DNA of 64,000 nucleotides from Massiliimalia timonensis. GTDB taxonomy: Bacteria > Bacillota > Clostridia > Oscillospirales > Ruminococcaceae. Below are positions 6,023-64,000 of the stretch, one piece after another. Position numbers and translations under genes: made by a program. Each line of letters starts with the position of its first letter. Positions within the stretch are counted from its first letter, which is position 1. The notes beneath the pieces are model-generated. The model was not told where the DNA came from and ran no database searches. It saw only the letters and a list, made by a program, of their open reading frames with translations. The stretch lies in contig NZ_FYDD01000004.1 of assembly GCF_900186585.1 (NCBI RefSeq), positions 1 through 64,000 of the forward strand, in the 5' to 3' direction.

Positions 6023-7261
6023 ATGTCTTATAATTTTTTGTTGGACCTCGCATTGATTCTTTTAAGCACTAAACTGCTTGGACTGTTGACCCGGAAGGTA
6101 AACATGCCGCAGGTAGTAGGGGCGCTTTTGGCAGGTCTGATTTTAGGGCCCGCATGCTTTGGAGTCTTACAGGAAACAGAATTCATCACCCAGCTCGCAG
6201 AGATCGGCGTTATCGTTTTGATGTTCACCGCAGGGCTGGAAACCAATATCAAGGAGCTGAAGAACTGTGGAGTTGCCTCCACAGTCGTTGCCGTCATTGG
6301 GGTAATCGTCCCATTGATCGGCGGGGCTCTATTAGGGCATTTCAGCAGTGTCGGCGGCGAAACATTGATGGAAAACATCTTCATCGGTGTCGTGCTTACC
6401 GCAACTTCAGTCAGCATCACGGTTGAAACGCTCAAAGAAATGGGGAAACTCAACACCAAAGTGGCAAATACTATTTTGGGCGCCGCCATTATCGACGACG
6501 TTTTGGGGATCGTTGTGTTGACGATCGTTTCCAGCTTGTCTGGAGAATCCTCCAACGTTGCCCTGATCCTGGCAAAAATCTTTCTGTTCTTTGTGTTTTC
6601 CGGTGTGGTCGGAATCATCTTTTTCAAACTGTTTTCCATGTGGTTCAGCAACAGCCAGAAAGACCTGCGCCGTTATGTAATCGTAGCGTTCGTATTCTGC
6701 CTGCTGTTATCTTTCCTTGCAGAAAAATGGTTCGGAGTTGCAGATATTACCGGCGCGTTCGTAGCAGGCTTGATCTTATCCGGCACCAAAAGAAGCCATT
6801 ACATTACTGCCCGTTTTGAAACTGTGTCATATTTGTTTTTGTCCCCGATCTTCTTTGCCAGCGTCGGGATCGCCGCAAAACTTGACAGCATGAGCGTTGC
6901 ACTGATCGTCTTTTCCATATTACTGGTAGTGATCGCGATCCTTTCCAAAATCGTGGGCTGTTTCTTAGGCGCCAGAATAACTGGGTTTAATAACAAAGAA
7001 AGCATCCAAATTGGTGCTGGAATGGTTTCACGTGGTGAGGTTGCACTGATCGTTGCCAATAAAGGAAAGGCATTAGGGCTTGTCAGCGATGTATTGTTTG
7101 GGCCGATCATTTTGATGGTCGTTGTTACCACCATAGTCGCCCCAATCCTCTTAAAGCTGGCGTTCCGTGATAAAAATCACCCTGCGCAAGAGCCTCCAAA
7201 AGAAGAGAACCCCTATGACGGAAAACTAGTAGACCCGTATGACGGTACTTTAATTGAATAA
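6023..7261 (+). CDS. Cation/proton antiporter, CPA2 (KefB/GerN-like) family
   Basis: A membrane antiporter expected to exchange Na+ or K+ for protons. Nearly the whole 412-residue chain is hydrophobic, with about 12 helices. Family signatures include the early PQVVGALLAGLILGP, the aspartate pair in AAIIDDVLGIVVLT of the ion-binding helix, and GAGMVSRGEVALIVA late in the protein. There is no C-terminal TrkA-N/RCK domain. The chain ends in a short acidic tail with the motif PYDG duplicated. The ribosome binding site AAGGAGAG fits the ATG. Ion specificity cannot be read from the sequence. Confidence 0.88.
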   Translation: MSYNFLLDLALILLSTKLLGLLTRKVNMPQVVGALLAGLILGPACFGVLQETEFITQLAEIGVIVLMFTAGLETNIKELKNCGVASTVVAVIGVIVPLIGGALLGHFSSVGGETLMENIFIGVVLTATSVSITVETLKEMGKLNTKVANTILGAAIIDDVLGIVVLTIVSSLSGESSNVALILAKIFLFFVFSGVVGIIFFKLFSMWFSNSQKDLRRYVIVAFVFCLLLSFLAEKWFGVADITGAFVAGLILSGTKRSHYITARFETVSYLFLSPIFFASVGIAAKLDSMSVALIVFSILLVVIAILSKIVGCFLGARITGFNNKESIQIGAGMVSRGEVALIVANKGKALGLVSDVLFGPIILMVVVTTIVAPILLKLAFRDKNHPAQEPPKEENPYDGKLVDPYDGTLIE

Positions 7262-48604: not shown

Positions 48605-49285
48605 ATGTACCGCATTTTGCTGGTGGAGGACGATCCCACCATTGTAAGCGTTCTGGCGCAGCAGCTTACCAAATGGAATTATCAGGTAGAAGCTGTCTTG
48701 GATTTTGGGCATGTCCTGGAGCAATTCCAAGCCTTTGAACCGCATTTGGTGCTAATGGATATTTCCCTGCCGTTTTTCAATGGCTTTTACTGGTGCGCCG
48801 AGATCCGGAAGATCAGCAAAACGCCGGTCATCTTCCTTTCCTCGGCAGGAGATAACATGAGTTTAGTCATGGCCATCAATATGGGGGCAGACGACTTTTT
48901 GGCGAAGCCGTTTTCACTGGAGGTCGTTCTGGCAAAGATCCAGGCCATTTTACGCCGTACCTATTCCTTTGGGAACGACCCGAAAACCATCACACACCAA
49001 GGGCTGACCCTGAACCTAAACGACGCCACCCTGCGGTTCGGCGAAGAAACGCTGGAGCTGAGTAAAAATGAATTTAAAATACTTCAAGTTCTTTTAGAAC
49101 ACACCGGATGTGTGGTAACACGGGAGGAGCTAATCCAAAAGCTTTGGGAAACAGACAGCTTCATCGACGACAACACCCTAACTGTCAACATGACCCGGCT
49201 GCGCAAACGGCTGGAGTCTATTGGGATAACCGACCTGATCCTCACTAAAAAAGGGATCGGTTACCTAATTAAGGAGGAACCTTAA
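48605..49285 (+). CDS. BceR-like response regulator
   Basis: An OmpR-type regulator of 226 residues. The receiver has acidic residues EDD at 8-10, acceptor D52 in VLMDISLP, Ser80 and K101 (FLAKPFS). The winged-helix domain (about 130-225) has LSKNEFKILQVLLEH and RLRKRLE. The start at 48605 follows AAGGAGG. Its partner kinase is the intramembrane-sensing type and the nearby ABC transporter is BceAB-like, so this regulator likely binds the TGTAAG sites upstream of the glycosyltransferase and transporter genes. Confidence 0.92.
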   Translation: MYRILLVEDDPTIVSVLAQQLTKWNYQVEAVLDFGHVLEQFQAFEPHLVLMDISLPFFNGFYWCAEIRKISKTPVIFLSSAGDNMSLVMAINMGADDFLAKPFSLEVVLAKIQAILRRTYSFGNDPKTITHQGLTLNLNDATLRFGEETLELSKNEFKILQVLLEHTGCVVTREELIQKLWETDSFIDDNTLTVNMTRLRKRLESIGITDLILTKKGIGYLIKEEP

Positions 49286-49357: not shown

Positions 49358-50368
49358 ATGAAAGCGACCGTTACGACTATGAGATATTTATGGGCTTACC
49401 TGCGGCAGCGAAAATGGATTTTTTTGCTGTTCATCCTGTTCGGGGTCATTTTGTGTACGGTCTACCGGCTGTATCACCTGGAATGGGGGCCGGCGTTTTA
49501 TACCTTGATCGTGATGCTGGCGATCGGGGTCCCAGTCTGTCTGATCGACTGCTACTATTATTGCAAACGTATAAAACAGGTAGAACTGCTCAAAAAACAA
49601 GCTGCCCTTCACATTGGGGAGCTGCCTCGTCCCTCTGGTGTTTTAGAGCAGAATTATCAGGAGATCATCCGTCTGCTGGAAAGCCGCTGCCAGGATACCG
49701 AACGCGCCGCCAGAGAATCCCGGGAGCGCGCCAACAGCTACTACACGCTGTGGAACCACCAAATTAAAACCCCCATCTCCGCCATCCGGCTCCTCGCCGA
49801 ATCCGGAGGGCTGAACCGGCAAAATGTAGAGCAGGAGCTTTTAAAGATCGAGCAGTATGTTTCGATGGGGCTGGAATACCAGCGCCTGGACCAGCCCAAC
49901 GATTTGTCGTTTCAAAGCCATGATTTAGAGCATCTGGTAAAACAGGTGTTAAAAAAGATCGCGCCGTTGTTCATCTATAAAAATATTAGCCTGCGTTTGG
50001 GAAACCTGCACGCCGTTGTACTGACCGATGAAAAATGGCTGTGCTTTATTCTGGAACAAGTGCTGACAAACGCGGTAAAATACACGGCCGCCGGTTCGGT
50101 ATCCCTGTCGCTTGACCCGCAGGCTCCCAACACGCTTTGTATTGAGGACACGGGGATCGGCATCCGGCCGGAAGACCTGCCGCGTGTCTTCGATTGGGGA
50201 TATACCGGATATAACGGCAGGCTGGACAAGCGTTCTACAGGGATCGGATTGGCGCTTTGTCGGCAGGCGGCCCAGCTTTTGGGGCATCGGATCGAGATCA
50301 CTTCTACACCCGGAATCGGCACTTTGGTAAAGCTGGACCTTTCCCGGGACCCGCTGGAAGTGGAATAA
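49358..50368 (+). CDS. BceS-like intramembrane-sensing histidine kinase
   Basis: A 336-residue kinase with two transmembrane helices (about 21-37 and 45-65) separated by only a few external residues, so it lacks a real extracellular sensor. Such kinases sense through a partner BceAB-type transporter. H134 in LWNHQIKTPISA is the phosphorylation site. The ATPase domain shows NAVKYT, EDTGIGIRPEDL and STGIGLALCRQAA. The ATG at 49358 has AAAGGAG rather far upstream (12 bases); one at 49379 is an alternative. Confidence 0.9.
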   Translation: MKATVTTMRYLWAYLRQRKWIFLLFILFGVILCTVYRLYHLEWGPAFYTLIVMLAIGVPVCLIDCYYYCKRIKQVELLKKQAALHIGELPRPSGVLEQNYQEIIRLLESRCQDTERAARESRERANSYYTLWNHQIKTPISAIRLLAESGGLNRQNVEQELLKIEQYVSMGLEYQRLDQPNDLSFQSHDLEHLVKQVLKKIAPLFIYKNISLRLGNLHAVVLTDEKWLCFILEQVLTNAVKYTAAGSVSLSLDPQAPNTLCIEDTGIGIRPEDLPRVFDWGYTGYNGRLDKRSTGIGLALCRQAAQLLGHRIEITSTPGIGTLVKLDLSRDPLEVE

Positions 50369-50371
50369 ATC

Positions 50372-50446
50372 CTTACAAAAATGTAAGAAATCTTAGGCAA
50401 AGTGTAAGCTGATTCACTGGCAAACTGCGATAATTTCTGATATGAT
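50372..50446 (+). promoter_or_regulatory. Regulated promoter of the GT51 gene (CTTACA/TGTAAG module)
   Basis: CTTACA (50372-50377), four bases, TGTAAG (50382-50387), then a third TGTAAG at 50403-50408, a repeat distance of 21 bases (two helical turns). Thirty-two bases later comes the -10 TATGAT (50441-50446). There is no good -35, as expected for an activator-dependent promoter. The same arrangement with identical spacing lies before the ABC transporter genes. Confidence 0.8.
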
Positions 50447-50545
50447 AGGAACAGTGAAAGATTTAAAGGTTTTTTAAGGAATATTTTCTAAAATCATATC
50501 CTGTTTCATGGTATGATTTGATTGTTCTGAAAGGAGGGGGAAAGT

Positions 50546-51250
50546 ATGCGCATCAGAAAATTTTTACAAGGATTTTTTCTGCTCCTTTTCGTCATCGCCT
50601 TAGTCGCTGGTTCCATCTTTTTATACCGCGGCTACAAAACGTATGACGAAGCCTATCAAAAAACCTCGCTGGACGAGATGGCGCAAACGGTTTACGATAC
50701 CCCGGGATTCACCCCGTTAGAGGAACTGCCTGAAATTTATTTAGACGCGGTGGTAGCCGTGGAGGATCATCGGTTTTATACCCATTCCGGCATTGATTTC
50801 ATCGCAATCTGCCGCGCCCTTTGGAACGATGTGAGAACGCTGAGCCTCGCCGAAGGGGGAAGCACCATCACCCAGCAGACCGCAAAAAATCTCTATTTTA
50901 CCCAAGACCGTACGCCTACCCGAAAAGTTGCGGAGATCTTCATGGCGTTCCAGTTGGAAAAGCATTTTTCTAAGGAGGAGATCCTGGAGCTTTATGTAAA
51001 TTCCATTTATTTTGGAAACGGATATTACGGCATAGGAAAAGCCAGCGAGGGCTTTTTTGGAAAAACGCCCGACAAGCTGACAGACAGCGAATGCACCATG
51101 CTGGCCGGGATCCCCAACGCGCCCTCTGCTTATGCGCCGACCGCAAACCCAAAACTTGCGCAGGAACGGCAAAGGCAGGTCCTGCGGCGGATGGTAGATG
51201 AGGAATGCCTTTCCCAAGAACAGGCTGACAATATCTTAAAGCAGGAGTGA
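50546..51250 (+). CDS. Monofunctional peptidoglycan glycosyltransferase (GT51)
   Basis: Polymerises lipid II into glycan strands. The 234 residues have an N-terminal membrane helix (about 7-27) and one GT51 domain, with no penicillin-binding transpeptidase domain. Motif 1 AVEDHRFYTHSGID carries the catalytic Glu (E73), motif 2 is GGSTITQQTAKNLY, motif 3 is RKVAEIFMAFQLE and a later motif is YVNSIYFGNG. The ribosome site GGAGGGGG is very strong. It sits between a BceRS-like pair and BceAB-like genes and has its own regulated promoter and terminator. A role in replacing or competing for antibiotic-bound lipid II is inferred. Confidence 0.92.
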   Translation: MRIRKFLQGFFLLLFVIALVAGSIFLYRGYKTYDEAYQKTSLDEMAQTVYDTPGFTPLEELPEIYLDAVVAVEDHRFYTHSGIDFIAICRALWNDVRTLSLAEGGSTITQQTAKNLYFTQDRTPTRKVAEIFMAFQLEKHFSKEEILELYVNSIYFGNGYYGIGKASEGFFGKTPDKLTDSECTMLAGIPNAPSAYAPTANPKLAQERQRQVLRRMVDEECLSQEQADNILKQE

Positions 51251-51266
51251 CCCTCCTGCTTTTTTC
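51238..51266 (+). terminator. Terminator of the GT51 gene
   Basis: AAAGCAGGAG/CTCCTGCTTT overlaps the stop codon and is followed by T residues, making the glycosyltransferase a single-gene unit. Confidence 0.85.
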
Positions 51267-51274
51267 ATGCAAAC

Positions 51275-51349
51275 CTTACACCGGTGTAAGGTTTGCGGCA
51301 AAAAGTGTAAGTTAAATCAATGGAAACGCGCCGCCTGCATCTTTATAAT
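51275..51349 (+). promoter_or_regulatory. Regulated promoter of the BceAB-like genes (CTTACA/TGTAAG module)
   Basis: CTTACA (51275-51280), four bases, TGTAAG (51285-51290), third TGTAAG at 51306-51311 (again 21 bases), then 32 bases to the -10 TATAAT (51344-51349). Beyond the motifs, GGCAAA before the third site and a TCA-TGG-AA pattern after it are also shared with the GT51 promoter. Confidence 0.82.
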
Positions 51350-51381: not shown

Positions 51382-52149
51382 ATGCCTTTATTAACTGTGA
51401 ACCATCTAAAAAAAATTTATACGACCCGGTTTGGGGGAAATCAGGTACAGGCATTAAGCGACGTTACCTTTTCCGTGGAGGAGGGGGAGTATGTGGCGAT
51501 CATGGGGGAATCCGGCTCAGGGAAAACCACCCTGCTCAATATCCTCGCTTCCCTGGACCAGCCCACCAGCGGATCTGTCATTTTAAATAACGTGGAGCTT
51601 GGCTCTATCCCTGACCGTCAGTTGTCCGCTTTCCGGCGGGAAAACCTCGGCTTTGTATTTCAAGATTTCAACCTGTTGGATACCTTTTCCCTGTACGATA
51701 ATATCGCGCTGCCTTTAGTGCTTTCCAGAAGAACACCGAAAGAGATCCAGCGCCGTCTGCTCCCGCTTGCCCAAATGCTTGGGATAGACGCTCTGCTGAA
51801 AAAATACCCTTATGAGGTATCCGGCGGGCAGAAACAGCGTGCGGCAGTTGCCCGCGCTTTGATCACCGACCCGCAGATCGTGCTGGCTGACGAGCCTACC
51901 GGAGCGCTGGATTCCAAATCGACGGACAGCCTGCTCCGTATTTTCGAGGAGATCAACCGCATGGGACAAACCATTTTTATGGTCACACACAGCCTGAAAG
52001 CGGCCAGCCATGCGAACCGGGTGCTGTTTATCAAGGATGGTGTCGTTTTCCACCAGCTTTATAAAGGGGCGGCTTCTAACGAGGAGATGTACCAGCATAT
52101 TTCGGACGCGCTGACTGTCCTTGCAACAGGAGGGAAAAACGGTGAATAA
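51382..52149 (+). CDS. BceA-like ABC transporter ATP-binding protein
   Basis: A 255-residue ATPase that powers the adjacent permease in peptide-antibiotic resistance or sensing. Walker A is GESGSGKTT (about 38-46), the signature SGGQKQRAAVARAL, Walker B IVLADEPTGALDS, and the switch His is in VTHSLKAA. Best match: the MacB/BceA type of the ABC family. It overlaps the permease start by eight bases. Confidence 0.93.
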   Translation: MPLLTVNHLKKIYTTRFGGNQVQALSDVTFSVEEGEYVAIMGESGSGKTTLLNILASLDQPTSGSVILNNVELGSIPDRQLSAFRRENLGFVFQDFNLLDTFSLYDNIALPLVLSRRTPKEIQRRLLPLAQMLGIDALLKKYPYEVSGGQKQRAAVARALITDPQIVLADEPTGALDSKSTDSLLRIFEEINRMGQTIFMVTHSLKAASHANRVLFIKDGVVFHQLYKGAASNEEMYQHISDALTVLATGGKNGE

Positions 52150-56903: not shown

Positions 56904-59900
56904 TTATTTTTTCCTATTTTTACGTTTTAAGATAACGATAATCAACAGGAACGCGCCAGAAACCACACAGAATGCCGCCAAGCTTAGTATGATCCATAAA
57001 TTGTCGCCTGTTTTGGGCAGTTCAGCCAACATCTCCAGCAACCCAGCATGCATTTGATCGATGTCCCTTGCTTTGACAAGGTCATAGCCCTGCTGCCGGT
57101 AAACCGGATTGGTCGCTTCTGCTGCTTTTTCAGACAGGATCATACAGCCTTTAAACTCATAGGCTTTATCTGTCAGTTTCAACTGGTCTAAAATCAGTTT
57201 GCTGTCGTCGATCCCTTTATTCTGCATGTACTTGGTGATCTCACGGTTATCCGGCAGCTCCTCAATGTTCAGCCGATAGCCCAACATCTGGTATTGCCGT
57301 TCTCCCGCATCATCCTCTACAGCGCGGAACAGCGGCAGATCTCCGAAGAGATACTTCCCAAAACGGTTGGTTTTGATCGTCTGTTCAAAATCTTCCACCT
57401 GTTTCCATGCGCCATCTACAAACGCGTATTGCGTAAGGATCACTTCTACGCCCGATACTTGGGGTTCTGTCAGGTCCATGATCCCGTCTTTATCAGCATC
57501 CAGCCAGACGGTACCTCCTACGGCGCCCTGTTCAAAGGCTGTTAACCCGGCATCCTGCCCGCTTAGGTCCTGCGGTACCATCGGTGCATAATGCGCATCT
57601 GTTCCATCCTTCCCTGTCACCTTGACAGAGGTGTAGTGATAGGAACCATCCGCACCCTTTTGCGCCGGCGCCGCTAAGATCATGACCTCGCCTTCCGGCA
57701 GCAGCGCCAAGGTCTTGGCATCCAGATCGCTGTCACGGGCTGGGTCGTCTCCCATATAAGGCCTGCTGACCGCCCAGCGCTCAGAAAGCGCCTCTACCTT
57801 TGGCCGATAAGCCGCAAGGTAGCTGTGTACTACTGTGTTTCCAGCAGCGTCTGTCTCTTCTTTCTGGATCACCGTAGCCAGCCCGTCAAAGAGGTATGCT
57901 CCGTCACGTCCCGTTTTGGCTTCCATCTGGAAGGTGTCGTCAAACAACCATTGGGTCCCGTCATAATAGTACCGTTGCAGAGAAACCGGAACTTCCGCAA
58001 CCCCCGGTTCGTCGTCCTGACGGATCCCGTCATAGCTCTGATCCTCCCAGATAACACCGGAGATTGAACCAGTTTGATAATTCAAAATCCCTCCGTCATA
58101 TCCGCGGATGTCGATTCCCTGTACAACGTCATACCCGTCAATGATATAATCCGGGTTTTGGGACTCTGTTTCAGCTTTGTCTACTAACAGGACGTATTCA
58201 TCCGCTTTTGTCAGCGCTCCATTCTGATAATTTAAGTCGCTGTCCACCGTTTTATCCTCGCCCATCTGATAATGAGTGACCTCATATCCTTCCGGTATCG
58301 TATCCAGATCAACGGTGACCTGGTATCCGTACAGGTACTTATTCGGCCCGTCGATCAAATGGGTCTCCAATGCGTCAAAGAGGTATTCTCCTCTTTCATT
58401 GGTAGGAATATCATATGGAACAAAATCAGCGTCCTGTTCCCAAACTCCATTTTTCAGGATATACCGGTTCAGGATCACACGGACATTTTCAACGCCCGGT
58501 TCGTCGTCCTGACGGATCCCGTCAAAATTCTGATCCCGCCAGATGATCCCGCCTAGGCTTCCGCCCTTATATTCGGAGAACCCGCCGTCATAGCCGCCGA
58601 CGGTTCGCGCGGTCAGCAGATCATAGGTGACCTGCTGTTTTTCAACATCAGTCATTGTGATCTGTGAGCTGTTAGCCGCCTTGTTCGGGTCTTTTACCGC
58701 CGCTACTGGGAGATATTCCCCGGAACGCATCAAGGATTTGGTACTGGAAATCAGGTTGCTGTCCTTACTACGGTCATCGCCTCTCCAGTATTTGGTCACA
58801 GCACGGTCTGAAGGCAGTTCCTTCAGATTCAGCGCATACCCAGCCAGATAGACCGTTCCGTTTTGCTCAACCTGTGTATCCAGATTATCGAAACGGAAGG
58901 TTCCATCCTCAAGAGTGGTCCGGCTCTGCTGAGCAAAGGAGGGATCCTGTATCCAAGTCTCACCGTCCAGATAATACCGGTCCAGCAAAACCTCTACTCC
59001 GGCATATCCCGGTTCATTTTCATCCTGGATGCCGTTATAATTCAAGTCATCCCAGATGATCCCGGTAATAGCGCCGTCCGGATACTCTACCAGCCCTGCA
59101 TCTTGTCCGGAAACAGTATCGGCAAGCAGCATATCATAGTATGCCGTTCCCACTTTTACAACACTGCTGTTATTGGCAGCCTTCACCGGCTTGGCAACCG
59201 GGAGATACTTCCCAGCCTGTGTCAATGACAGATCTGACGCATCCAAGTCGCTGTCTTTCGTAGGGTCGCTTCCCTGTTGGTAATAGGTGATCCCGCAGCC
59301 GCTTGGCAGGGAATCAGAGTCCACCTTTAAGGCGTAGCCAGCCAGATAAGCCTTTTGATTGACAACTACTTGTGTGTCCAAACCAGTAAATGTATACTTT
59401 CCAGCTCCGTCTGTTATAGCAGAGTGCATTGGGAAATCGGCGTCTTTCTGCCACTGTCCGTCGTCATAATAATAGCGTTCCAGTTCTACAGAGACATTCC
59501 CGATCCCGACTTCTCCGCTGTCCTGGATCCCGTCGTAATCCTTATCATTCCACACCCTTCCGATGATCGTACCGTCCGGATATTTCACCAGACCGCCGTC
59601 ATTACCGGAGGCAGTACGCTGAGCCAGCATATCATAAACGACTGTTTTGCCGCTGACCTCTTTGACAGAAACAGTACTGCTGTTATATCCACCGCCTGTG
59701 CTGTTTTGGGAGGCCACTGCCGCAACCGGAATGTATTCTCCCGCCTGGGTCAGGGTCAGATCCGCCGCGTTCAAATCACTGTCTTTCGTACGGTCGTTTC
59801 CTTGCTGGTAATAGGTGATCCCATAACCGTCTGGCAAAGCTTCTGCCTTTAGAGTATAGCCAGCCAGATAAGCCTTTTGCTTCACCACTACCTGCGTATC

Positions 59901-62900
59901 CAAGCCGGCAAAGGTATAGGAACCATCGGCTTGGGTGGTTGCTTTTTGTTCGGTAAAGGCCGTATCCAGTACCCATTTGGCCCCGTCATAGTAATAACGC
60001 TGCAAGAATACGCTTACATCTGGGACTCCGTTTTCTCCGGTATCCCTGATGCCATCGTAATCCAGATCATCCCAGATAAATCCGGTCAGTTCTCCCTGCG
60101 GATACGCCTTTAAACCGCCGTCATAGCCGGTATGGTCGGCCTGTTTGCGAATGATGTCATAGGAATCTTTTCCATCTGTCAGCGTATAATGCGGATTGAC
60201 CAATTTCCCTGCCGGCCGGGCCACCATAAAGTAGTCCCCGTCTGCGGGCGATGTCAAATAATTTTCAGATCCGGCATACTGGTTGGTGATCCAGTCGCTG
60301 TTGGTGCCGCCGGAAGCGACCTGCTGCTGGTACCGGGTCACTCCAAAGCCTGCCGGAGCATCAGCGCGGAGCCGGTAGTAGCACAGCGTATTCTTCCCAT
60401 CGATCTTTACAAAGGTCGGTACATTTTCAAAATGGTAGTTTCCTCCGTTTGCCGTCAGGGTAGACAGTTCGCCCGTGTATACTGTTCCATTGGCACTTTC
60501 CGCCTTGGTCACTTTCTGATAGCGGCCGTTCGCGTCTTTATAATACTGCTCCAGATAGACTGTAACGCCGTCGATCCCTGTTTCCCCGGAATCCATTACG
60601 CCGTCATAATCCGCATCCTCCCAGATGATCCCGTCAACGTTACCGTATTGATACTCGCTTAATCCGGCATCGTAGTCCAAAATGATCTCCGCGTCACTCA
60701 GGTCATAATCATGTCCCTGATAGATCACCTGGTTGTCCGGGACAGTTTCATCGGTCGCGTCAACTGCAATGATAATGTAATCGTCATTGAGATAATAACC
60801 ACGGTCTATCCCTAGGTCACTGTCGCTGACACCTTTGTTCACGTAGAAGTGGGTGACGCCGTACTGCTTGAAGATCTCCTCATTCAAAGCCGGGTCGATT
60901 TTCAGCTTGTAGCCAGCCAAATACCGTTTTCCGCCTTCAGAATGGAAACTCATCACATTGTCAAAGACATAAACACCGCCGTCGTTGGTGGTCATGGTGC
61001 GGTCAGTCTGAGAGCGGACCCACTGGCCGTCCTTATAATAATAGGACTCCAGTGTAACGGTCACACCTGGAACACCTTCCTCGTCCGGATCCATGATTCC
61101 GTCATAATCGGCATCGTTCCAAACAAATTTCCCAAGATAGCCCCGTCCGGCATTGATCAGTCCCAAGTCGATATTGGTATTAGCCTGGAACGACTGCTTC
61201 TTATCATCGGCAAAAATAGGATCGCCGTTCTGATCGTACGGGACCGCCGCTTCAAACGCCTTGGTCTCATAGTTTTTGTTGATCTTGGACAGATCGTTGT
61301 CATCGTCTTGTGTCAGCGGATCGCTTTCATAGGTCCATGGCGACGGCTTTAACAAGCGGTCTTCTGTTGTCGTTTTATCTGTAACGCGGACAATATAAGA
61401 CTCGCCCGGCTTCAAACGGAACTGGTATTCCCCGTCTGCCTTGGTAGTGTATACAGCAGGGTTCCCATCACCATCCAGACAAGGCTTTGTCTGATCCTTG
61501 ATATTGTAGACAGATACCTCCATATCCTCCAGATACGGTTCGCCGTCTTCCCGTTTTCCGTTGCTGTCGATTTTTGTTTCATCCGGGGCGTCAGGATCCG
61601 GTATTTCATGTTCGTCCAGCCACACGGAACCGCCATAAGTATACGCGCGCCCTACGCCCAGATTATACGATGTCACTTCCTTGTCGTAATCAGGGTATTT
61701 TGTCAAATCTTCTTCCACTGCTTTCACCGTGATCGGTTCAGCTGTTTGAACTACCAACCGGTCAGCCGGCAGATCATACACCGGCGAAACGCTCTTCTTG
61801 GTTCCGGAATAAACTAATTCGTTATTGCGGTATACCTGAACAGGGATTTGTTCTTTCCCCAGTGATGTAGTGGTCACCGAATACTGGTTATAGTTTTCCG
61901 GGAAGGTGTAACGCAGGTTATATTGGCCCGGCTTCAGATTAGCAAGAATATAATACCCGTCATTGTCATAATAGTCGCTTTCGGTTTCAAAAGCAACCGG
62001 CCCTCCGGCTAAAGAGTATTCCTGTTTCCCGGTCAGCGGGTCGGTGATCGGCAGTCCAGTTTCTTCGTCCAGCACCAAATACTGGCCGGTTTCCTGTCCG
62101 TCGATTATTTCAGCAGCAACTGCCTGCCCGTCACGGTTTGCGGGATAGCCTTTTACTGTCAGCAGTTCTACCTTTACCCCATTGATCCCCGGATCGTCCT
62201 CTTTCCCGTCAAAGTCCAGATCAGTTGTCTTGTTCTTTAACTGGATCCGTCCGGTCTTTTCTTCTACGCCGTAATCGCCTTCTCCGTCATCTGGAACAGT
62301 GCTGTAATCCGCGTCGTTCCAAACGTAGCTTCCAATATAGCCCCGTCCGGCAGGCGCATTCGTATAAACGCCCGCCCGTACCAATTCGATCCGGCCGCTG
62401 TTCCAATGCGCAACAAAGGTATTCCAAGCGCTGAAATCTTTTACCGCTTCGTTATACTGGACTGTTGCGTTTACTGCATCCTCTGACATTTGAAGCGTAC
62501 CAACGTATTCCGGCAGGTTCAGCGGCGCATGCATGTCAAAGAACAGCCGCAAACGGTTGTTAGCCAAGATGGTATAGTCGTCCGCCATCTGTACCCAGAC
62601 CGCGCGGATCCCCTTGATCAGGGTTTCCTTTTCTTCCCCGTCATCCAACGCCATCAGTTCATCCAGTTTTACAAAGTATTTCGCCTTTGCCTGGTCGCTT
62701 GCCCGCAGCTCATCGTACGTTTCTTTTTTGGACATCGCTTCCTGATCCGGCAGGCTGCTAATATCATTGAGCACAAAATCAGAGCCCTGTTTTACGATCG
62801 GTCCGACCCAGACCTCATAGTCTTTGTTCCGGACCAATTCGACCGAACCGGTTTCCACTCCGCCGGCAGAGGCGGCAAAGTCTAATACCCGAATGGTAGA

Positions 62901-64000
62901 AGGGTCGATCCAGCCATGCCATTTAGAGTTCCTTGGGATTTTCTGATTGGTGCTGGTGTCAAGGTTTTTGATCTCATAGTCATCCAGATACGGCAGGACA
63001 TCATAGAAAACGCCCTCTGTATAATTCTGAGATTCACTCTTATTGATCATGGAAACCTTGTACTCATAAGTCCCACCTTCTGGGACAGGGGTGGCGATCT
63101 CGGTCTGATTGCTGACCAGATCTGTGGTTACGGTCTTGTTCTGTGACACAGAGGAAACCGTTTTAAATGCGATCGCATTAGAAGAACGGCTGACTCCCAT
63201 TTCCACTGTTTCGGTGTTGTTATTGACATCATAGTTGTCGTATACCAGCACCAGGCTGTCCAACGAGCTGCCCTGAGATTTAGTATATGGCTCAAAAGCG
63301 CCTTTTTTAAATCCATAGGCCTTGGACTGCAAAAGATCGGTCGGCACAGCGTTCCCGTCGGTTTCTTTTACCGGCAGCATAAACTCGATCTTCAGGGTCT
63401 GCCCTGCTTCCAAGGTTCCGGTAAAGTAGTAGTTTAAGATCTTGCGCTGGTTGGTGGTCTTGTCGATCACCTTGGTCGTAAAGGTCGGCGATTCCTGCGT
63501 CAGCTGCAATCCGTCCGGAATATTTTTTAGTTCCTCCGGCGTCAGGATCGTCCCGTCTTCATTCTGCACATACCAGGTCCACAGCGGTGTTTTATTGTCC
63601 AGATTTTCGGTGACCTTATGGGCTTCGTCCGTTTCATCTTCCATCTGCCCGTAAGCGTCGCCAATATAATAATCACCCTGATAGAAACCATCCGCTCCCG
63701 GCTCCTGATAATCCACATACTGGAAATCATCCTCACGAAGCCGGTCGATATACGGCACTGCTACAGAAATATTGGGATTGGATACGTTATCCTGCACAAT
63801 ATCAGGATCCTGTTTACTGCTGATACTGGAGTAGCTGACCTTATATTTCAACATCGTACTGCTGCTGGAATCAATAATGACGTTGTTATCCCATTTATAC
63901 CCTTTGATCGGGCCGCCGGTAAAGTAAAGCACATCGATCCCTAAATCTACGGTCGGCACTTCCGGGTCAACATAATACCCTCCGCGTGCACGTTCAGAAG
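56904..64000 (-). CDS. Giant SdrD-B-repeat surface protein, LPKTG-anchored (5' end outside window)
   Basis: The frame is open to the right edge, so the visible 2,365 residues are the C-terminal part; the apparent start near 63959 is only an internal GTG. After an adhesin-like, isopeptide-type region come about ten SdrD-B-like domains. Each has the pattern W-DxDYDGIxDxGExGVxxVxVxLxxYYYDGxW, with DxDxDG calcium-binding loops; DSDLD-type linkers join several. The end is the sorting signal LPKTG, a hydrophobic helix and RKNRKK. It should be sortase-linked to the wall as a long, rigid, calcium-stiffened stalk for adhesion. No sortase is visible in the window. Confidence 0.9.
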   Translation of the reverse strand, partial: SERARGGYYVDPEVPTVDLGIDVLYFTGGPIKGYKWDNNVIIDSSSSTMLKYKVSYSSISSKQDPDIVQDNVSNPNISVAVPYIDRLREDDFQYVDYQEPGADGFYQGDYYIGDAYGQMEDETDEAHKVTENLDNKTPLWTWYVQNEDGTILTPEELKNIPDGLQLTQESPTFTTKVIDKTTNQRKILNYYFTGTLEAGQTLKIEFMLPVKETDGNAVPTDLLQSKAYGFKKGAFEPYTKSQGSSLDSLVLVYDNYDVNNNTETVEMGVSRSSNAIAFKTVSSVSQNKTVTTDLVSNQTEIATPVPEGGTYEYKVSMINKSESQNYTEGVFYDVLPYLDDYEIKNLDTSTNQKIPRNSKWHGWIDPSTIRVLDFAASAGGVETGSVELVRNKDYEVWVGPIVKQGSDFVLNDISSLPDQEAMSKKETYDELRASDQAKAKYFVKLDELMALDDGEEKETLIKGIRAVWVQMADDYTILANNRLRLFFDMHAPLNLPEYVGTLQMSEDAVNATVQYNEAVKDFSAWNTFVAHWNSGRIELVRAGVYTNAPAGRGYIGSYVWNDADYSTVPDDGEGDYGVEEKTGRIQLKNKTTDLDFDGKEDDPGINGVKVELLTVKGYPANRDGQAVAAEIIDGQETGQYLVLDEETGLPITDPLTGKQEYSLAGGPVAFETESDYYDNDGYYILANLKPGQYNLRYTFPENYNQYSVTTTSLGKEQIPVQVYRNNELVYSGTKKSVSPVYDLPADRLVVQTAEPITVKAVEEDLTKYPDYDKEVTSYNLGVGRAYTYGGSVWLDEHEIPDPDAPDETKIDSNGKREDGEPYLEDMEVSVYNIKDQTKPCLDGDGNPAVYTTKADGEYQFRLKPGESYIVRVTDKTTTEDRLLKPSPWTYESDPLTQDDDNDLSKINKNYETKAFEAAVPYDQNGDPIFADDKKQSFQANTNIDLGLINAGRGYLGKFVWNDADYDGIMDPDEEGVPGVTVTLESYYYKDGQWVRSQTDRTMTTNDGGVYVFDNVMSFHSEGGKRYLAGYKLKIDPALNEEIFKQYGVTHFYVNKGVSDSDLGIDRGYYLNDDYIIIAVDATDETVPDNQVIYQGHDYDLSDAEIILDYDAGLSEYQYGNVDGIIWEDADYDGVMDSGETGIDGVTVYLEQYYKDANGRYQKVTKAESANGTVYTGELSTLTANGGNYHFENVPTFVKIDGKNTLCYYRLRADAPAGFGVTRYQQQVASGGTNSDWITNQYAGSENYLTSPADGDYFMVARPAGKLVNPHYTLTDGKDSYDIIRKQADHTGYDGGLKAYPQGELTGFIWDDLDYDGIRDTGENGVPDVSVFLQRYYYDGAKWVLDTAFTEQKATTQADGSYTFAGLDTQVVVKQKAYLAGYTLKAEALPDGYGITYYQQGNDRTKDSDLNAADLTLTQAGEYIPVAAVASQNSTGGGYNSSTVSVKEVSGKTVVYDMLAQRTASGNDGGLVKYPDGTIIGRVWNDKDYDGIQDSGEVGIGNVSVELERYYYDDGQWQKDADFPMHSAITDGAGKYTFTGLDTQVVVNQKAYLAGYALKVDSDSLPSGCGITYYQQGSDPTKDSDLDASDLSLTQAGKYLPVAKPVKAANNSSVVKVGTAYYDMLLADTVSGQDAGLVEYPDGAITGIIWDDLNYNGIQDENEPGYAGVEVLLDRYYLDGETWIQDPSFAQQSRTTLEDGTFRFDNLDTQVEQNGTVYLAGYALNLKELPSDRAVTKYWRGDDRSKDSNLISSTKSLMRSGEYLPVAAVKDPNKAANSSQITMTDVEKQQVTYDLLTARTVGGYDGGFSEYKGGSLGGIIWRDQNFDGIRQDDEPGVENVRVILNRYILKNGVWEQDADFVPYDIPTNERGEYLFDALETHLIDGPNKYLYGYQVTVDLDTIPEGYEVTHYQMGEDKTVDSDLNYQNGALTKADEYVLLVDKAETESQNPDYIIDGYDVVQGIDIRGYDGGILNYQTGSISGVIWEDQSYDGIRQDDEPGVAEVPVSLQRYYYDGTQWLFDDTFQMEAKTGRDGAYLFDGLATVIQKEETDAAGNTVVHSYLAAYRPKVEALSERWAVSRPYMGDDPARDSDLDAKTLALLPEGEVMILAAPAQKGADGSYHYTSVKVTGKDGTDAHYAPMVPQDLSGQDAGLTAFEQGAVGGTVWLDADKDGIMDLTEPQVSGVEVILTQYAFVDGAWKQVEDFEQTIKTNRFGKYLFGDLPLFRAVEDDAGERQYQMLGYRLNIEELPDNREITKYMQNKGIDDSKLILDQLKLTDKAYEFKGCMILSEKAAEATNPVYRQQGYDLVKARDIDQMHAGLLEMLAELPKTGDNLWIILSLAAFCVVSGAFLLIIVILKRKNRKK

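Follow-up and report, generated by a model that had tools for sequence, protein, structure and literature searches.

Why does a gene for a stand-alone peptidoglycan glycosyltransferase of family GT51 lie between the kinase and the transporter genes of a BceRSAB-like module in Massiliimalia timonensis, and is it controlled together with the transporter? The question is raised by a stretch of 64,000 nucleotides (hereinafter the window, to which all coordinates without a contig label refer), in which the promoters of GT51 and bceA appear to carry one and the same operator.

Genes of the locus

The genes proposed in an earlier note on this DNA, namely those for a regulator, kinase, glycosyltransferase, ATPase and permease, are borne out by Pfam and by matches to solved structures:

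48605..49285, + strand: BceR-like OmpR/PhoB-type response regulator, 226 aa (Pfam Response_reg and Trans_reg_C)
49358..50368, + strand: BceS-like intramembrane-sensing histidine kinase, 336 aa (H-box WNHQIKTP; SapS model at E 1.4e-49, below the cut-off of that model)
50546..51250, + strand: stand-alone GT51 peptidoglycan glycosyltransferase, 234 aa (Pfam Transgly, E 2.6e-64)
51238..51265, + strand: candidate terminator, a hairpin that spans the GT51 stop codon and has a U-run at the base of its stem (fold -14.6 kcal/mol, z -3.4)
51382..52149, + strand: BceA-like ABC ATPase, 255 aa
52142..54121, + strand: BceB-like permease, 659 aa, Pfam FtsX (PsdB 9ugg, E 5.7e-46; BceB 7tcg, E 5.7e-27)

The closest solved chains for the regulator are 5dcm and 5dcl (E 3e-64 to 8e-64; record title 'PhoB family transcriptional regulator'), which we take to be NsrR of S. 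agalactiae; together with the Pfam domains, these matches assign the protein to the lantibiotic-resistance branch of the OmpR/PhoB-type regulators. The kinase has two hydrophobic segments (20-38 and 45-63) with six residues between them, that is, almost no extracytoplasmic part, and simple hydropathy of the permease reveals about 225 residues (308-534) that lack a hydrophobic segment, as expected of a large extracytoplasmic domain. The GT51 protein consists of a single N-terminal hydrophobic segment and the Transgly domain, with no transpeptidase domain, and accordingly qualifies as monofunctional; EDHRF at 73, GGSTITQQ at 104, RKVAEI at 126 and ELYVN at 148 are presumably the motifs of the GT51 family. 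It scores 140.1 bits with NCBIfam TIGR02070 (mono_pep_trsgly, MtgA), under the curated cut-off of 182.65, and 236 bits with the PBP1A-family model, also below the cut-off, and is therefore best described as a PBP1A-like stand-alone GT51 rather than classed with MtgA.

The fold of the candidate terminator is equalled in 1 of 200 shuffles, and the hairpin is absent from the list produced by the terminator scan. Another inverted repeat, AAATCATA...TATGATTT (50491-50520), precedes the ribosome-binding site in the leader of GT51; as a hairpin, it is weak (z -1.6, equalled in 15 of 200 shuffles) and was discarded. Elsewhere in the window (56904-63959, - strand), there is a 2351-aa open reading frame with repeated SdrD B-like units and an LPKTGD end followed by a membrane segment, which, judging from its translation, looks like a sortase-anchored surface protein.

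Two copies of one operator

The promoter elements of the two units are the following:

50372..50387, + strand: main operator palindrome CTTACA-AAAA-TGTAAG of the GT51 promoter (half-sites 50372-50377 and 50382-50387), 3 bases past the kinase stop codon
50403..50408, + strand: second TGTAAG half-site (N15) of the GT51 promoter
50417..50422, + strand: CTGGCA at the -35 place of the GT51 promoter, 8 bases past the half-site (consensus of relatives, ATGGC)
50441..50446, + strand: -10 TATGAT of the GT51 promoter, with TG in front
51275..51290, + strand: main operator palindrome CTTACA-CCGG-TGTAAG of the bceA promoter (half-sites 51275-51280 and 51285-51290)
51306..51311, + strand: second TGTAAG half-site (N15) of the bceA promoter
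51320..51325, + strand: ATGGAA at the -35 place of the bceA promoter
51344..51349, + strand: -10 TATAAT of the bceA promoter

The spacings of 4, 15 and 32 bases are identical, and the composite CTTACA-N4-TGTAAG-N15-TGTAAG-N32-(-10) described previously is exact at 50372 and 51275. The only exact palindromes in the window are those of these two sites; with up to two mismatches, 4 are found against 1.64 expected, so that only the exact pair stands out. For the 18-base composite, base composition gives an expectation of about 2e-6 per 64 kb, a figure that is a guide only because the motif was defined from these data.

The two operators have the same base at 10 of the 27 free positions. The operator of bceA agrees with those of the closest modules, L211 and L207, at 14 and 13 positions, and that of GT51 at 10 and 11. 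Recent duplication of one promoter into two is thus unsupported, and the greater closeness of the bceA operator to L211 and L207 gives a weak hint that the GT51 operator might have arrived together with GT51.

Bce modules of the same genome and the identity of the regulator

The genome (2.7 Mb, 4 contigs) was scanned with the motif read backwards as the control. It contains 2 exact composites, 1 with one mismatch and 2 with three mismatches, compared to 0 at up to three mismatches for the control. No further composite is found at up to two mismatches and, hence, no dlt, mprF or other target in trans by the composite scan. There are also four one-mismatch palindromes (C1:307295, C2:190105, C3:47159 and C3:142797), and a looser composite (TTACA cores, up to three mismatches) gives no signal (44/43 vs 56/52 for the control).

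The one-mismatch composite (C2:229864) lies within ten bases past the stop codon of a BceS-like kinase and precedes a BceA-like gene. It belongs to a second complete BceRSAB module (C2:228185-232760; L006 6186-10761) that has the same operator but no GT51, with a regulator 56% and a BceA 74% identical to those of the window; read from the sequence, its -10-like TACAAT lies at N33, not N32. All composites at up to one mismatch in this genome therefore belong to one or the other of its two close Bce modules. None is found at up to four mismatches in a third Bce-like module, which is more distant (C2:977857; regulator 39-40%, BceA 48%). By eye, its bceA promoter (L246 5587-5650 = C2:979586-979649) reads TGACA-AAAA-TGTTCG, 5 bases, TGTAAG, 8 bases and ATGG, with TATAAT at N32; the promoter-near half is the same, and the distance from its TGTAAG to the main site is 11 bases where the other operators have 21, one helical turn less.

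In the recognition-helix region of 54 motif-linked regulators, N195 is conserved in 96% and R198 in 98%, and both residues are shared by the paralogue. Among the ten other regulators of this genome, two have N195 and R198 (L013 and L014) and one more has R198; L013 is the regulator of the third module, with its different bceA promoter spacing, and L014 is encoded near another BceA-like ATPase. Because N195 and R198 are common to the paralogue and others, the motif fits BceR-type regulators as a class and not one protein. The earlier note had taken the motif for the binding code of the regulator at 48605; a BceR-type operator it appears to be, but it is not special to this regulator, given the second, 56% identical one with the same operator.

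GT51 and bceA might even be activated mainly, or to an equal degree, by the paralogue at C2:228185, with the two modules forming one network. We consider this arrangement possible but rather doubtful: every operator lies inside its own module, and Fang et al. are said to have reported in 2017 that BceR and PsdR of B. subtilis discriminate similar sites. The case for cross-regulation consists of the identical operator beside both modules, the overall similarity of the two regulators with a near-identical recognition-helix region, and a precedent in L. paracasei, where PsdR binds the ApsR promoters (PMC10858260).

GT51 genes with the operator in other genomes

Searches with the GT51 protein retrieved 17 loci (E 1e-50) and 22 more (E 1e-62), 39 altogether and 38 without that of the window. 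The operator is located directly upstream of GT51 in G062 and G399 and, with a small gene in between, in G180. In six genomes, GT51 is found behind bceB, with gaps of 589 (G091), 839 (G083), 135 (G010), 184 (G057), 779 (G013) and about 50 bases (G234). Co-transcription of GT51 with bceB is a presumption only, and the longer of these gaps hold an extra open reading frame; the bceRS module of G057 has no composite at up to four mismatches, and the GT51 gene of G234 contains two in-frame stops. In the remaining 29 of the 38 loci, the stretch covered shows no operator upstream of GT51 and no adjacent Bce module, some of the contigs being short. The motif scan added L064, in which the operator is followed by GT51 on a 6.4-kb contig that has no Bce gene, and L131, with the gene order RSAB-GT51.

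Altogether, the operator precedes GT51 in four other genera (G062, G399, G180 and L064). In G062, GT51 and bceA are 69 bases apart and one operator stands before both (GT51-bceAB). Read from the sequence, the GT51 operators of G062, L064, G180 and G399 are followed by ATGG and a -10-like hexamer at N32, N32, N32 and N33, respectively. In G180 and G399, the GT51 operator and a second copy before bceA are on different contigs, which speaks for action in trans; no BceR-like regulator was detected in G399 at E 1e-60 or better.

On a tree of 41 GT51 proteins, the operator-bearing state requires five changes on the best topology, at least three of them on well-supported branches, and the position behind AB requires six, at least two on such branches. 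Linked versus unlinked genes need eight changes (mean of 10.6 after shuffling; 19 of 500 shuffles reach eight or fewer). Support is weak for many of the inner branches; the window gene lacks a well-supported sister and does not group with the other operator-bearing genes. These counts indicate that the tie to the operator or to Bce modules has arisen or moved on more than one occasion and that there is some clustering.

The same observations bear on whether the operator is real for bceAB whereas GT51 merely landed between bceS and bceA, its regulation having no role in peptide resistance. That 29 of the 38 relatives are unlinked, that the closest relative module seen (L211; regulator 69%, BceA 77%) lacks GT51 between kinase and bceA, and that the window gene stands apart on the tree are all compatible with such hitchhiking. 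It is nevertheless unlikely, considering the operator before GT51 in the four other genera, in two of which bceAB is on a different contig, the GT51 genes behind bceB in six more genomes and L131, and the five label changes needed for the five operator-GT51 genes, at least three on well-supported branches.

A small protein (about 50-75 aa, one hydrophobic segment, core like VP(V/I)GxxMFxxSGxWSAxDR) recurs in Bce-type surroundings. In seven loci (L142, L109, L068, L090, L129, L082 and L040), it is the first gene behind the operator, before a GT2-like gene; elsewhere, it is encoded between the operator and GT51, between bceB and GT51, or behind bceB. Further loci are L222 (rc 6665-7075), L167 (6674-6904), L131, L228, L023, L030, L099 and L108; six of the matches were the seeds of the model, and L099 and L108 look like near copies. 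The protein matches no Pfam family above the cut-off; in one copy, there is a weak resemblance to the membrane region of PspC. No copy was seen by eye between 50446 and 50546 in the window.

Distribution of the operator

Public genomes were scanned for the exact composite (first gene within 500 bases downstream; BceA counted at 38% identity or more), which yielded at least 120 stretches with at least 121 placements. The first gene behind the 121 listed placements is BceA-like in 88 cases, BceB-like in 2, GT51 in 1 and another gene in 30. In four of these 30 (L026, L031, L104 and L135), a BceA-like gene follows 1.0-1.5 kb downstream, and some of the 30, e.g., the Halomonas record L035, may be chance placements. 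Pfam analysis of ten of the other first genes identified VanZ-like, PAP2 (2), erythromycin esterase (2), peptidase S41, glycosyltransferase 2, DUF4003 and HlyD-like proteins, and one protein with no family. The VanZ-like, PAP2 phosphatase, erythromycin-esterase-like and S41 peptidase genes with the exact operator in other Bacillota (L034, L049, L112, L079, L141 and L091) are candidates for further BceR-type targets.

In a family sample of 146 genomes, there are 27 matches in 25 genomes at up to one mismatch, against 2 for the backwards control. Outside the genome analyzed here, 21 of the 24 matches are directly before bceA and one is before GT51-bceA (G062); of the two others, L198 lies beside a Bce module on the opposite strand, and L212 has no Bce gene within 3 kb. 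A sample chosen independently of the motif consisted of BceA matches at E 1e-100 or better, present in 49 of 197 genomes of the order including the present one; 30 of the 51 matches were listed and, without the one from this genome, 29 loci were considered. The palindrome (up to two mismatches, within 600 bases upstream) is present in 26 of the 29, compared to 3% in shuffles, and the best downstream half-site in 25 of these 26 is at N15 (16 loci) or N14 (9 loci). The three loci that lack it are L256, L263 and L273, the latter two with weak palindromes at 3 and 4 mismatches and a half-site at N15.

The searches of this and related genomes proposed earlier thus find that the composite tracks bceA behind BceRS pairs and that GT51 has the operator elsewhere as well. 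The motif is conserved upstream of orthologues and has survived the objection that it might recur at many unrelated genes, yet 30 of the 121 listed placements do have other first genes. An inverted repeat of the TTACA type with an N4 spacer before transporter genes, the composite appears to be a real, general BceR-type operator across Bacillota, known in kind. Ownership of both sites by another palindrome-binding regulator that is not of the BceR type is very unlikely: the tie to BceRS-BceA holds in samples not chosen by regulator and in the BceA-chosen one, and published BceR-type sites are inverted repeats like these (PMC10858260, PMC3128592), although some of the exact placements have no Bce gene in the vicinity. 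A chance agreement of short AT-rich repeats, judged very improbable from the outset for all the spacings together, can be dismissed, since the composite exceeds the controls in this genome and in the 146-genome family and recurs at orthologous positions, including the BceA-chosen loci, even if the palindrome alone at two mismatches does not exceed the controls (within what shuffles allow in the window; 56 vs 84 for the backwards control in this genome).

Architecture of the promoters

A promoter scan gives CTGGCA-18-TATGAT (9/12, TG before the -10) for GT51 and TGGAAA-17-TATAAT (10/12) for bceA; with 7 promoter-like sites against 5.7 in shuffles, the scan by itself proves nothing. The statement that neither promoter has a good -35 holds insofar as the -35 is weak, but promoters of 9/12 and 10/12 do exist and relatives keep an ATGG box. 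Among 85 distinct bceA promoters, this box is conserved at the -35 place (A 90%, T 82%, G 81% and G 85%), and the -10 is found at N32 in 52 and at N33 in 20 (72 of 85 together; about 4 per distance in shuffles). Both features lay outside the search pattern and so were unselected; N32 is a general feature of bceA promoters and not peculiar to this pair. The consensus consists of the palindrome with an A-rich spacer, a G-rich and then an A-rich stretch up to the second TGTAAG, 8 bases, ATGG and the -10. The distance to the second half-site is not strict, N14 occurring along with N15, and the left partner of this half-site (positions 21-26) is not conserved. With a spacer of 18 bases, ATGGC, a conserved non-consensus box, would act as a poor -35, and the arrangement is as expected of an activator that binds immediately before a weak -35. 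The operator, with the half-site at N14/N15, the ATGG box and the -10 at N32/N33, can be used to find BceR-type targets in Clostridia by sequence.

A predicted regulon

We conclude that the two sites most likely are BceR-type operators of one antimicrobial-peptide response, in a single regulon that would pair BceAB with extra peptidoglycan polymerization. That glycosyltransferase and transporter form one regulon, as suggested in the earlier note, is supported at the level of sequence by the recurrence of this operator in relatives, in many of them before bceA and in several before GT51; the bacterium probably switches on both units jointly under wall attack. BceAB would handle peptide attached to one of the lipid intermediates in wall synthesis, and its activity would drive the kinase to phosphorylate the regulator at 48605 and, possibly, also the paralogue on contig C2. 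A regulator dimer would first bind the CTTACA-N4-TGTAAG palindrome; binding would next extend to the TGTAAG half-site, which lies two helical turns further downstream, and the regulator there, beside the -35 place, would recruit RNA polymerase to the weak -35 promoter. The terminator-like hairpin would close the GT51 unit and separate it from bceA, which may be why each of the two has its own operator. As the outcome, more BceAB would free blocked lipid, and more glycosyltransferase would keep polymerizing lipid II.

The regulon would couple the sensing of peptides to an enzyme whose substrate, lipid II, is what many of these peptides attack. More tentatively, BceR-type regulons of Clostridia might repeatedly recruit a stand-alone GT51 as a second arm, such that BceAB frees the drug-blocked lipid and GT51 uses up surface lipid II, the target being both cleared and removed. 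Should GT51 have a part in resistance, Bce systems would not just free the target from the drug but also alter its amount.

Comparison with known systems

The locus shares with BceRSAB and PsdRSAB of B. subtilis the order of regulator, kinase, ATPase and permease, the intramembrane-sensing kinase and the operator before bceA, and the permease matches the structures of PsdB and BceB; it differs in that kinase and bceA are separated by a GT51 gene that has an operator of its own. In B. subtilis, the operator reportedly consists of a main site, a linker and a secondary site downstream at a fixed distance (as Fang et al. are said to have described in 2017); the second TGTAAG half-site, at N14 or N15 and with no conserved left partner, is at most a candidate counterpart of this secondary site. 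Target protection is the likely mode of action of BceAB, which also drives BceS-BceR (PMC7690785).

In Lacticaseibacillus paracasei, the PsdR/ApsR operators AnnTTACnAnnnnGTnAG control derAB, dlt and mprF; the similar inverted repeat, the regulon that extends beyond the transporter and the two paralogous regulators acting on like sites are common to both cases, whereas the extra target in the window is a peptidoglycan glycosyltransferase instead of dlt and mprF, and the partial description has no second TGTAAG half-site (PMC10858260, available part). GraR of Staphylococcus aureus, a BceR relative, likewise acts on transporter and envelope genes via an inverted repeat upstream of the -35; its core sequence (ACAAA-TTTGT) and targets (vraFG, mprF and dlt) are different (PMC3128592).

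The VraTSR system has no Bce transporter module, and VraR belongs to a regulator family different from the BceR type. This system works alike without being a member: wall stress induces mgt, a stand-alone monofunctional glycosyltransferase, in S. aureus (PMC9380581). A search by titles, abstract openings and term counts, with most subscription journals outside its coverage, found no published Bce-type regulon with a GT51 gene. Thus, inverted-repeat operators of the BceR type, regulons that extend beyond the transporter to dlt and mprF, and induction of mgt by VraR are already known. What appears to be new here, and is well supported by comparison of sequences, is the predicted membership of a stand-alone GT51 in a Bce-type regulon, a target less usual than the operator before it.
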